Origin: Prevotella sp.
GTDB lineage: Bacteria; Bacteroidota; Bacteroidia; Bacteroidales; Bacteroidaceae
Assembly: GCA_024690505.1 (NCBI GenBank)
Contig: JAILPA010000098.1
Coordinates: forward strand, 1-42,735
Direction of reading: 5' to 3'
Length of the DNA stretch: 42,735 bases
The position numbers were made by a program, and so were the translations under genes. Under the pieces are notes generated by a model. That model searched no databases and was not told the DNA's origin. It saw only the letters and a list, made by a program, of their open reading frames with translations. Below, piece after piece: positions 2,028-41,334 of this stretch; the first letter of the stretch is position 1, and every line of letters starts with the position of its first letter.

Positions 2028-3242
2028 ATGAAACACTATCATTCCAGATTGATGCTTTCTGCCCTCTTGTTGCTGTTGTCGGCAGCCATGTGGGCCAACG
2101 ATGGCGTGTACTACGTGAGCGGCAACCAACTGGTGCCTGTGAAGGAGACCGACATCGCCGTGACCAAGGAGATTCTGACCATCGAGATTGGCGACGACGA
2201 GTACGCCAACGTAGATGTCTACTACGAGTTTACTAACAATGGCTCTGCCAAGACGGTGACGATGGGCTTCGAGGCCATGCTGCCTTATGAGGGCGGCGAG
2301 AGCGTGCTCAACCGGCAGGGCGTCCACCCCTACATCAAGGACTTCAAGGCCCTGTTCAACGGCACCCAGCTGATCTATTCCACCGGTGTGGTGGCTGTGA
2401 ATGGCGAGAATGGCTACAGCGACATGAAGCCGCTCGACATGCGTAAGTGGCGCTATGAATTCAATTTTCCCGATAACGACTATGCCCAACAGTGGGACAT
2501 GGTGGAGGGCCATCTGGTGAATGGGCACGACACCATAATGACAGTGGCCTATGCCTACTACTTCGAGGCCAAGTTCCAGCCGGGGAAGAACATTGTGAAG
2601 CACACTTACCGCTATCGCATGTCGAGCGACGTGATGCACGACTTCTCCATCCCTTACATGCTGACGCCTGCCACCCGCTGGGCCAACCATCAGATTGACG
2701 ACTTCACCCTCTGCATCAAGGCTCCGAAGGGCATCAAGCATTTCTACATGCCCGACCACATCTTCCGCTCAGCGCCTTTCCGCGTGGTCAGCGGAGTGGG
2801 CAAGACAAGACATTGCGACAAGAACGAGGACGATAACGTGTGGACCGACTACACCGAGGTGTCGCTCCGTCATGGCGCTGTGGAGTGGAAAGCCCGCAAC
2901 TTCCGCCCCACCGACGAGCTCTTCATCCGTTCGGCGAAGGGGCTTCCCGGTAATCTGCTGGTGGGCGCCTACTACAGCTCAACGCCCTTCTGGTGCTCGG
3001 AGGACGTCGATAGCCAGCTGTTCTACGGCCGTCCCGACTGCTCTGAGGAGGAGGAACAGGCTCTCGTCAAGCGCATCCGCCGCAATCTGCCCTATGCTGC
3101 CCGTGGCTACGTCTTCCGCGACAAGAAGTTGCAGCATTTCTTCGACAACCAGTGGTGGTACATGCCCGATCCCAACTGGAAGATGTCGACCGACGACTTC
3201 AGCAAGTTCGACTGGGAACTGATTAACGGCCTTGAAGAGTAA
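2028..3242 (+). CDS. secreted protein, DUF4424-like, copy 1
   Basis: 404 aa, signal peptide then [45 protein letters not shown]; strongly similar to the next ORF. Confidence 0.75.
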
Positions 3243-3285
3243 TCCCACAGCTATGAGTCAAACACCCCTAGTTCCTTTCCATACG

Positions 3286-4491
3286 ATGATAACCAAACGC
3301 CTTTTACTCACCTTTGCTGCCATGATGCTGATGGGCGGCTTGAGCGCCAACGACGGCGTGTACTACGTCAGCGGTAACCAGCTGGTTTCCGTCGAGGAGA
3401 CCGACATCGCCGTGGCGAAAGAGATACTGACCATCGAGATTGGCGACGACCAGTTTGCCAGGGTCAACGTCTACTACGAGTTCTATAATCCAGGCCCCGC
3501 CAAGACCCTTACCATGGGCTTCGAGGCCATGTTGCCCTATGAAGGGTCTGTCTGCGAACTGAATCCGAAGGGCGTTCATCCCTATATCCATGACTTTACC
3601 GCCACCATCAACGGCAAGTCCACACCCTATTCCACTGGCGTGGTGGCCAAACGCGACAGCGTGCCCACCGACATGAGGCCCCTTAACATGCGCAAGTGGC
3701 ACTTCGGTCCTGGCGACGGCTTTCAGGAAGAGGACGGCAACACCTATTGGGACATGAACGAAAGCTTCCTCACCAACGGCACTGACACCATCGACTTTGC
3801 CTCCTGCGCATACTACTTCAAGGCACGATTCAAAGAGGGGAAGAACATCGTAGTGCATTCTTACCGCTATCGCATGTCGGCCAGTGTCAACTATAATTAT
3901 GCTATCCCCTATCTGCTCACGCCGGCCACCCGCTGGGCCAACCACCAGATTGACGATTTCACCCTGCACATCACCGCTCCGAAGGGCATCAGGCACTTCA
4001 TGCTCTACAACGACGGATTCCTCGCAGCACCCTTCCAACTCGTCAGCGGCAAAGGGAAGATGAGACCTCGGGAAAGAGTCGAAGAGGACTTCAATCGGTC
4101 GGATATGCTCGAAGTCTACATGTACAACGGCACATTGGAGTGGAAATCCCGCAACTTCAGGCCAGAGCACGAGCTGTTTGTCTTCTCGGGAAATTTCTAT
4201 GGCGATGCGGGCGGAATAGGCTACGACAACAACTCGTTCTTCCAGGTAGACGACAGCCTGTATCAGGCATTCTATGGCAAGCCGGCAAAGAACGACAAGG
4301 AAAAGACCGACCTGGAAAAGCGCATCCGTCGCAACCTGCCCTATGCCGCACGCGGCTACGTCTTCAACGACAAGAACCTGCGGGCCTTCTTCGAGAAGCA
4401 GTGGTGGTACACGCCCGACCCTAACTGGAAAATGTCGACCGACGACTTTACCAGATATGACTGGGACATGATAGAATCGACTACTTATTGA
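3286..4491 (+). CDS. secreted protein, DUF4424-like, copy 2 (tandem paralog)
   Basis: Start placed at [43 protein letters not shown]; colinear with 2028-3242 along its whole length, including the [16 protein letters not shown] tail. Confidence 0.75.
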   Translation: MITKRLLLTFAAMMLMGGLSANDGVYYVSGNQLVSVEETDIAVAKEILTIEIGDDQFARVNVYYEFYNPGPAKTLTMGFEAMLPYEGSVCELNPKGVHPYIHDFTATINGKSTPYSTGVVAKRDSVPTDMRPLNMRKWHFGPGDGFQEEDGNTYWDMNESFLTNGTDTIDFASCAYYFKARFKEGKNIVVHSYRYRMSASVNYNYAIPYLLTPATRWANHQIDDFTLHITAPKGIRHFMLYNDGFLAAPFQLVSGKGKMRPRERVEEDFNRSDMLEVYMYNGTLEWKSRNFRPEHELFVFSGNFYGDAGGIGYDNNSFFQVDDSLYQAFYGKPAKNDKEKTDLEKRIRRNLPYAARGYVFNDKNLRAFFEKQWWYTPDPNWKMSTDDFTRYDWDMIESTTY

Positions 4492-4702: not shown

Positions 4703-4860
4703 AGTCCGAACGGCTTCGGACTCGCAGTCCAAACGGCGTTGGACTCGCAGTCTAACCATGTTTCGGACTCGCAGTCCGAAAGCAGTCTCGGACTCGCAGT
4801 CCGAAGCCCTCGGACTGGGAGTCCGAAGGCTCCAAACTCACAGTCCGAAGCCTTCGGACT
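4703..4860. repeat. array of seven ~20-nt palindromic units (AGTCCGAA...TTCGGACT) with 3-nt spacers
   Basis: Units at 4703-4722, 4726-4745, 4749-4769, 4773-4794, 4798-4816, 4820-4838 and 4842-4860; spacers CGC x4, GGG, CAC; most units are perfect or near-perfect stems. Confidence 0.9.
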
Positions 4861-4988
4861 GCTTTTGGGTGACAATAAGCAATGGCACAAGGGCCAAGAA
4901 CCAATAGTGCAAGGGACATGAAATAAAAATGCAAGGGACAATGACGACCCTTGCAAACTACTGCTTGTGATGATAATGGGGTGGGGTT

Positions 4989-6398
4989 TTACTGCTTCAG
5001 CTTGAAAGAATGCTCAATGCTGTTCAGCTCCTCGGCAAAGGCACGGTCTACCTTCAGGCGCTGCTCCACGGTGCTGCAGCTATGAATCACCGTGCTGTGG
5101 TCGCGGCCGCCGATGAGCTGTCCGATGCGGGCGGCAGGCATCTTCGTGTACTTCTGGGCCAGATACATCGACACCTGGCGCACCTGCACGTAGTCGCGCT
5201 TGCGGCTCTTGCTGAACACTTGCTGCTGGCTCACACCGAAGTGGTGGCACACCTTGTCGATAATATCGTCAATTGTCAGCGGATGGTCATCCATCTTCAC
5301 GGCACGCTTGATGACGCGCTCGGCCAGCCTCATGTCGACATGCGTGTTGTAGACTATGCTGAAGGCCAGCAACTGGTTCACCACACCCTCCAGGTCGCGC
5401 ACGCTGCCGTTGGCGCTCTGGGCAATGAACTGGATGACGTCGGCTGGTATCTTCAGACCGTCGCGACGGCACTTCGAGTTCAGAATGTCTACACAGAGTT
5501 GCACGTTGGGCTTCTCGAGCTCGGCAATAAGACCACACGAGAAACGTGTCAGCAGGCGATCCTTCACGCCGTCGAGGTCGACGGGCGGACGGTCGCTGGC
5601 CAGAATAATCTGCTTGCCCAGGCGGAATAGGTGGTCGAAGATGTGGAAGAACGTGTCGAGCGTCTTCGGGGCATTGATCCATTCCTGTATGTCGTCGACT
5701 ATAAGCACGTCGATGGTCTGGTAGAAATTGATGAAGTCGTTGGTGGTGTTTTGCCTTACGGCATCGGTAAACTGAACTTGGAACAGACGGGCCGATACGT
5801 AGAGCACGCGCTTCTGGGGATACATCTTCTTCGTGAGCACGCCAATGGCATTGATAAGGTGGGTCTTGCCACAGCCTGACGGGCCGTAGAGGAAGAAGGG
5901 ATTGAACGTCGATTTGCCCGGATGCTCGCCAATGGCGATACCCACGGTGCGCGGCAACTTGTTAGAGTCGCCCTCAATGAAGTTGTCGAAGGTCTGCTTG
6001 GGGTTCAGTTGGGGGTTCAGCTCCTGTGGCACGGCGGCGTCGAGCACAGTGGGAGCGCGGTTGCCGCGGGTAGTGGCCTGAGGTGCCTCGATGTCCGACG
6101 GACGGTCGCCCTCCCACTCCTGAATCTTCTTGTGCTCTCTATCGGTAACTAAGCGGTATTTCAGGCTCACGCTGGCCTTGAAGCTGTTGGTCAATGCCCA
6201 GGCCATCAGGCGCACGAAGTTCTGCTCCAAGTACTCGTAGATATACGCACTTGGAACCTGCACCAGCACTGTCTTCTGCTGCTCGTCGTAGCTCTCGAAG
6301 ACAATGGGCTCGAACCACGTCTTATATGTCTGCTCGGTGACGTTCTGCTTGATGAGTCGCAAGCATTCGTTCCAAAGCGCAAGATGTCCTTTCTGCAT
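4989..6398 (-). CDS. dnaA: chromosomal replication initiator DnaA
   Basis: Walker A GPSGCGKTHL, Walker B VLIVDDIQEW, DnaA signature IGQLIGGRDHSTVIHSC; 469 aa. Confidence 0.98.
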   Translation of the reverse strand: MQKGHLALWNECLRLIKQNVTEQTYKTWFEPIVFESYDEQQKTVLVQVPSAYIYEYLEQNFVRLMAWALTNSFKASVSLKYRLVTDREHKKIQEWEGDRPSDIEAPQATTRGNRAPTVLDAAVPQELNPQLNPKQTFDNFIEGDSNKLPRTVGIAIGEHPGKSTFNPFFLYGPSGCGKTHLINAIGVLTKKMYPQKRVLYVSARLFQVQFTDAVRQNTTNDFINFYQTIDVLIVDDIQEWINAPKTLDTFFHIFDHLFRLGKQIILASDRPPVDLDGVKDRLLTRFSCGLIAELEKPNVQLCVDILNSKCRRDGLKIPADVIQFIAQSANGSVRDLEGVVNQLLAFSIVYNTHVDMRLAERVIKRAVKMDDHPLTIDDIIDKVCHHFGVSQQQVFSKSRKRDYVQVRQVSMYLAQKYTKMPAARIGQLIGGRDHSTVIHSCSTVEQRLKVDRAFAEELNSIEHSFKLKQ

Positions 6399-12696: not shown

Positions 12697-12751
12697 AATG
12701 TGTGAACATCCAAAACAGGCTGTGAAAGACGCTGCGGCCGTTTCCTTTGCT

Positions 12752-12864
12752 GCAACAGTGTTGCAGCATAGCTAACGAGGGGGCTCCTTCGTGCAACAGT
12801 GTTGCAGCATAGCTAACGAGGGGGCTCCTTCGTGCGACAATGTTGCAGCATAGCTAACGAGGGG
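12752..12864. repeat. 41-bp tandem repeat, about 2.75 copies
   Basis: GCAACAGTGTTGCAGCATAGCTAACGAGGGGGCTCCTTCGT starting at 12752, 12793 and 12834 (last copy truncated, GCGACAATGTTGC variant). Confidence 0.92.
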
Positions 12865-41185: not shown

Positions 41186-41334
41186 TTCTCCTTGTTAATT
41201 ACTAAAAAACAGATGTTTACTTTTAAAAGTTTAATAAGCTGAGCGCCGATTCACAAACCACGCCGCCTGGCCATAGACGGACGCTATTTACACGACGTTC
41301 ACGGGGGATTCTAAGACCCTCCCCCAATAATCGG
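41186..41334 (-). promoter_or_regulatory. putative structured 5' leader of the L13-S9 operon
   Basis: About 150 nt from the TACCTTTGC promoter to rplM; leader 5' end CCGATT can pair with AATCGG ~85 nt downstream; inner GGGGG...CCCCC and ATAG-CGTCCGT-CTAT hairpins. Confidence 0.45.

Follow-up and report, generated by a model that had tools for sequence, protein, structure and literature searches.

A seven-unit palindrome array beside dnaA as a probable expanded copy of a dispersed, RPE-like palindromic element of Prevotella

The window analysed here is a 42,735-nt stretch of contig JAILPA010000098.1 of a Prevotella sp. genome. Between dnaA and a YARHG-domain gene it contains an array of seven short units spaced 3 nt apart. 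The array is probably an expanded member of a class of dispersed, non-autonomous palindromic elements of Prevotella that resemble the Rickettsia palindromic elements (RPEs). The class is dispersed, prefers intergenic positions, has in-frame genic copies in related species, keeps a fixed geometry with unrelated arm sequences, and is also found on phage-like contigs. An earlier note on this DNA held that no standard feature class explains the array; a class can now be given, that of dispersed, partly protein-coding palindromic elements. In the open-licence literature, no description of 22-bp-period trimers in Prevotella was found.

Structure of the Array

The features of the site are as follows.

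3322–4491, plus strand: left convergent neighbour, YARHG domain, DUF4424-like (DUF4424 just under the Pfam cut-off)
4703–4860, no strand: seven-unit palindrome array, a member of a dispersed Prevotella family with 20 further loci in this genome
4703–4722, no strand: unit 1, AGTCCGAACGGCTTCGGACT, 20 nt, arm match 8/8
4726–4745, no strand: unit 2, AGTCCAAACGGCGTTGGACT, 20 nt, arm match 7/8, compensated
4749–4769, no strand: unit 3, AGTCTAACCATGTTTCGGACT, 21 nt, arm match 5/8, decayed
4773–4794, no strand: unit 4, AGTCCGAAAGCAGTCTCGGACT, 22 nt, arm match 7/8
4798–4816: unit 5, 19 nt, arm match 7/8
4820–4838: unit 6, 19 nt, arm match 5/8
4842–4860: unit 7, 19 nt, arm match 8/8
4798–4860, no strand: trimer of units 5–7, exactly 63 nt, 3 × 19 nt, 22-nt period, spacers GGG and CAC
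4930–4955, minus strand: hairpin TGCAAGGG...CCCTTGCA, followed by the T-run ATTTTTATTT (by sequence inspection)
4989–6398, minus strand: dnaA, right convergent neighbour

All spacers of the array are 3 nt long: CGC four times, then GGG and CAC. The longest ACT-NNN-AGT chain reaches 6, whereas shuffling the intergenic sequence 2000 times gave a maximum of 2. Thus, the seven units and constant spacers described in the earlier note stand and are beyond chance. The palindromic character ascribed to the units is borne out for most of them, with arm matches of 7–8 of 8, and fails for units 3 and 6, which at 5/8 are poor palindromes. The paired G-to-A and C-to-T change of unit 2 is present as described. 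RNA folding is much more stable than in shuffles on both strands, with z scores of −7.7 and −7.5. Units 5–7 have the usual dispersed trimer form, which is also seen at home-genome loci L034, L037, L044, L047, and L051 and in relatives.

No Rfam family scores above its gathering score at the array. The sole Rfam match in the window lies elsewhere, and is an L13-Bacteroidia ribosomal protein leader at 41248–41325 on the minus strand (RF03127, 67.9 bits). A tandem repeat of 41 nt, palindromic in parts (TGCAACAGTGTTGCAGCATAGCTAACGAGGGGGCTCCTTCG), lies between two genes at about 12751–12850 of the window. Named phages and plasmids gave no match to the intergenic region that holds the array, and a phage or plasmid origin was rejected on that ground.

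The dnaA Site

The array does lie between convergent genes, as had been noted: the YARHG/DUF4424-like gene ends at 4491 and the minus-strand dnaA ends at 4989. Two YARHG/DUF4424-like genes form a tandem pair, 2028–4491, adjoining the array. On the minus strand, the hairpin at 4930–4955 with its T-run ATTTTTATTT is the probable dnaA terminator, as judged by sequence. Because this hairpin and T-run precede the array, dnaA transcripts may stop short of it.

The dnaA 3′ flank is not a special position for the array. The same family occupies 20 other loci, and among the dnaA 3′ flanks of about 22 relatives an array is found in G140 only, where it lies 390 nt beyond dnaA and at the end of a contig. 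A dnaA-specific regulatory or origin element was rejected for these reasons. A dedicated function at the dnaA/YARHG site is not supported, and any effect on the convergent transcripts would be incidental. Other tandem repeats, with an 85-nt period and of the AGTCCGCTG type, are found 3′ of dnaA in two relatives (L226 and L227).

The Family in the Home Genome

The core sequence GGACTCGCAGTCC, with at most one mismatch, has 52 matches in the 2.9-Mb home genome versus 9 for the reversed control. At least 21 arrays of three to eight parsed units were found. All are intergenic, none being within a gene, and they adjoin unrelated genes, e.g., rpsL-, mutS-, ileS-, and hisS-like genes as identified by eye. 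The AGT/ACT invariance among parsed units is by construction, as the parser demands ACT-NNN-AGT. At the 17 arrays for which gene orientation could be assigned, the flanking genes are convergent at 6, tandem at 8, and divergent at 3.

Modules of three to four units, spacers and off-consensus units included, are common to several of these arrays. A AGTTTCAA-type module is found in L031, L033, L048, L049, and L040, and a AGTTTTTGG-type module in L035, L036, L046, L039, and L050. The sharing of multi-unit modules, down to the spacers and off-consensus units, indicates that modules have been copied between loci. No target-site duplication was seen by eye at home-genome arrays. At L041, the orthologous site is array-less in G140, G093, G155, G144, and G013; the intergenic flanks align poorly, so this empty-site comparison is weak.

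Spread Among Prevotella and Beyond

Exact matching against 84,980 species genomes returned 98 stretches, nearly all from Prevotella, mostly rumen MAGs together with the isolate tc2-28. The sequence TCGGACTNNNAGTCCGA is present in 25 of 398 Prevotella species, most strongly in rumen lineages. The usual element consists of three 19-nt palindromes with 3-nt spacers and a period of 22, for a length of 63 nt, or 21 codons.

Larger forms exist in which the array is one end of a dispersed composite. In tc2-28-like rumen species the composites are about 360–440 nt long. Those at L095, L104, L140, L102, and L161 have the array at the end plus an element of ~250 nt with inverted ends CGATTTTACCCTCCC and GGGAGGGTAAAATCG, and also hold palindromes of the form AATAAGG..CTTATT with 4-nt spacers. 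In G140 the composites are about 160–220 nt long, and the array copies are bounded by A/T tracts. Trimer arrays are also found between genes of IMG/VR phage-like contigs (L082 and L435–L439), four of which share one 383-aa protein, phage-integrase-like in appearance, upstream of the array.

The geometry is not tied to one arm sequence. A second arm family, TTCCCA/TGGGAA, likewise has a 22-nt period; it occurs in 108 of 398 species, at up to 84 copies per genome, and its reversed control has zero matches. A sequence-blind detector, set for three palindromes with a period of 22 and run on 1.69 Mb of loci, gave hits with the arms AGTCCG, AGTTCG, TTACCAG, and TTCCCA, and no hits in shuffled sequence. 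In loci that had not been selected for arrays, 22 is the recurrent period.

Copies Inside Protein Genes

Among 103 arrays examined in relatives, 23 lie within genes and in frame: 14 of 73 AGTCCG arrays and 9 of 30 TTCCCA loci. The genes were called on MAG contigs with a simple codon-usage caller. With the arm families pooled, array length is divisible by three in 19 of the 23 genic arrays versus 29 of the 80 intergenic ones (Fisher p = 1e-4). The host genes are as follows.

AGTCCG arrays: cobyrinate a,c-diamide synthase CbiA (two species), GldL (two), THUMP-like methyltransferase (two), MG2-domain protein (four), NRPS (one), the C-terminus of an ABC-F protein (one), and the CarA–CarB junction in a putative fused frame (two)
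TTCCCA arrays: CbiA (two), RsmF (two), GH106 (three), OEP efflux protein (one), and acyltransferase (one)

The genic arrays checked against Pfam fall outside domain matches, the acyltransferase being the one exception, and nearly all occupy interdomain linkers. Peptides predicted to be encoded by arrays include TVRRRRTVSPKASDCESEGVGL and SVRSRRTHSPKPSDSQSEAVGL and, in CbiA, TVSPKASDCESEGVGL.

CbiA is the case in which one position can be followed across species. In the ortholog alignment a single linker, which joins the ATPase and GATase_3 domains, contains trimers whose arms have at least three different sequences: AGTCCGA in L169, L121, and G093; GTTCCCA in G018; and ATTCCCA in G025. Imperfect or decayed forms are found in G080 and G013. 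In orthologs that lack an array the linker is about as long, 20–22 aa, so that old arrays that have decayed or been replaced fit as well as insertion. In other species (L395, L394, L378, and L381) the linker carries the repeat-derived peptides VGAGLVPARKP, DSSLFTLHSS, GTEVSST, and LPSPPREGSGE.

Pairing and Covariation

The change in unit 2 had been taken as a sign of selection on pairing, and a search for covariation in related genomes had been proposed. In the home genome, within-unit arms that are both variant and complementary number 6, against 1.2 expected by permutation (p = 0.0008); in relatives, the count is 24 against 8.9. Among variant units of the home genome, however, only 6 of 46 are compensated and 40 are not, the compensated units being a minority that are mostly 20–21 nt long. 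For 96 distinct 19-nt units, pairing is 79.8% versus 80.4% in shuffled units and the covariation score is 0.101 versus 0.106. All covariation measures on these units are at or near the shuffle values, and none is seen genus-wide. Orthologous arrays differ chiefly at the centres of their units, and most of the changes in their arms are uncompensated. Selection on pairing is thus unsupported, and the proposed search gives no covariation above the shuffled background. The few compensated units are explained by arm-to-arm copying or by a mixture of subfamilies.

A second pairing register across the 3-nt spacer had also been suggested. It shows no covariation: complementary variants number 1 versus 1.0 expected in the home genome and 0 versus 2.3 in relatives. 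Although the single arrays L045 and G028 contain perfect 19–20-bp hairpins centred on a spacer, the junction register was rejected as a functional hairpin.

Proposed Origin and a Possible Mover

We propose that a factor acting in trans inserts or copies the elements. Such a factor would probably recognise folded hairpins or palindromes spaced 22 bp apart, a strict period that would correspond to about two helical turns. Purifying selection would then leave copies where they are harmless, i.e., between genes or in interdomain linkers. Copies may be tolerated in linkers because 63 nt preserves the reading frame and the units are mostly free of stop codons. Local duplication of units would give rise to longer arrays, that at 4703–4860 among them, and units would afterwards decay, one arm at a time.

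The search for a mover gave the following. No PF01797 (Y1/RAYT transposase) protein was found in the home genome, which is 82% complete, or in G061, G065, G067, G069, and G070, and no such hairpin lies close to the Y1_Tnp loci fetched from other genomes with arrays. Comparison of flanks made no autonomous, transposase-holding copy evident among 20 G140 copies and the tc2-28-type composites.

A more far-reaching proposal, which we advance only tentatively, is that dedicated Prevotella machinery writes or spreads 63-bp palindrome trimers with a 22-bp period, whatever the arms. Positions such as that in CbiA would be kept while the arms are replaced genome by genome, a concerted turnover in which selfish DNA would repeatedly rewrite protein linkers.

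Alternative Explanations

The arrays might have arisen with no transposition, each originating in place through slippage or hairpin-driven template switching, with conversion between arrays then keeping them alike. The range of three to eight parsed units in the home genome is consistent with this, as is the excess of compensated units over permutation, which arm-to-arm copying can produce. The CbiA linkers likewise hold their position while the sequence varies between species. Nevertheless, dispersal is needed to account for the same arms, and for modules of several units held in common, at many unlinked loci; the larger composites of relatives are themselves dispersed, always with one fixed end formed by the array; and the 63-nt trimer predominates. 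Local birth is unlikely.

A little less likely still is the direction taken in the earlier note, in which the array, lying between convergent genes, is under selection for pairing and serves as a bidirectional terminator or stabilises RNA. Both strands fold strongly, convergent sites look over-represented (6 of 17 assignable home arrays), and the arrays of one relative, G140, have A/T-tract borders. Against this stand the 8 tandem and 3 divergent sites, the terminator-like hairpin that dnaA has ahead of the array, the lack of covariation among distinct units, and the many copies in relatives that sit translated within genes. T-tracts are also missing from the ends of home arrays: at least five T in eight positions are found at 1 of 42 ends, where 8% is expected, and an intrinsic terminator was rejected on this count. 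Terminator function is thus unlikely in the home genome, the A/T borders of the G140 copies notwithstanding.

The possibility that the arrays are binding sites for a nucleoid, partition, or regulatory protein, placed two helical turns apart, is a rather poor one. Such a role would suit the strict 22-bp period, the conserved AGTCCG/CGGACT cores with variable centres, and the sites that keep their position across species. It sits badly with arrays scattered by unrelated genes and within coding sequences, with different arm sequences at the same site in different species, and with the degeneracy of one arm in many units.

Least likely is that the array is a REP/BIME element mobilised by a REP-associated tyrosine transposase (RAYT, Y1). 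REPs are defined by a GTAG or CGTC tag (PMC3733652). REP, BIME, and REPIN elements do share with the Prevotella element the form of short intergenic palindromes that are dispersed, clustered, and mosaic. Further, the Chloroflexi genomes G076, G077, and G078 carry CGGACTNNNAGTCCG at 111–338 copies per genome, with the same CGGACT-NNN-AGTCCG hairpin as the Prevotella junction. These 15-nt hairpin matches appear to be GTAG-type REPs, and their likeness to Prevotella is taken as coincidence. In contrast, the GTAG tag is missing from the unit spacers and array flanks of the home genome, no CGTC tag is present, and in-frame genic copies are frequent in relatives. Y1_Tnp is absent from the home genome and the five other array-bearing genomes named above, and elsewhere it is not near the hairpins. 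A CGTC-type REP was rejected, since stems beginning with AT and a CCA tail (PMC3733652) are not seen and the tag is missing.

Relationship to Known Elements

The dispersed Prevotella element is closest in behaviour to the RPEs, which are dispersed palindromes found between genes and also translated in frame in conserved proteins, in non-structured segments (PMC10969869, PMC2229807, and PMC2996958). The 23 intragenic arrays of relatives match this pattern, being in frame in conserved genes and nearly all outside Pfam domain matches. RPEs differ in being single long stem-loops of ~105–150 bp with terminal inverted repeats, whereas the Prevotella elements are 63-bp trimers of 19-bp palindromes with a 22-bp period and several unrelated arm sequences. 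The Prevotella element thus behaves like an RPE and is not assigned to the RPE family. Coding palindromes have also been reported in Wolbachia and Methanocaldococcus, according to work cited in PMC2996958.

Three further repeats bear comparison. The BrickBuilt MITE of Porphyromonas gingivalis is likewise from the Bacteroidales, dispersed, and built of tandem repeats of similar period (a 23-nt minisatellite; PMC4596501). It differs in having direct repeats of another sequence, a leader, a tail, and IS5-type TIRs, and no such TIRs were seen here. PINSR likewise lies between genes and has been amplified within one lineage of Prevotella (PMC4755523); its described length of 188 bp and its confinement to the P. 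intermedia/nigrescens clade set it apart. PARCELs (palindromic amphipathic repeat coding elements) are tandem palindromic coding repeats (PMC2996958); their units are amphipathic, 75 nt or 25 residues long, and found in membrane proteins, unlike the dispersed intergenic trimers of Prevotella.

Significance

To our knowledge, palindromic elements that code for protein have been described mainly in Rickettsia, Wolbachia, and one archaeon. Prevotella is abundant in the gut and rumen, and a class spread across this genus, with a conserved geometry, unrelated sequences, and the same protein linkers used in frame more than once, would offer many natural comparisons of the conversion of selfish DNA into protein. 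A fixed period of 22 bp suggests a specific enzyme, which a phyletic-profile screen could find. Many annotated Prevotella proteins would carry repeat-derived peptides. MAG assemblies may also break at such repeats; in G140, a dnaA-flank contig (contig 200, L268) terminates within an array.
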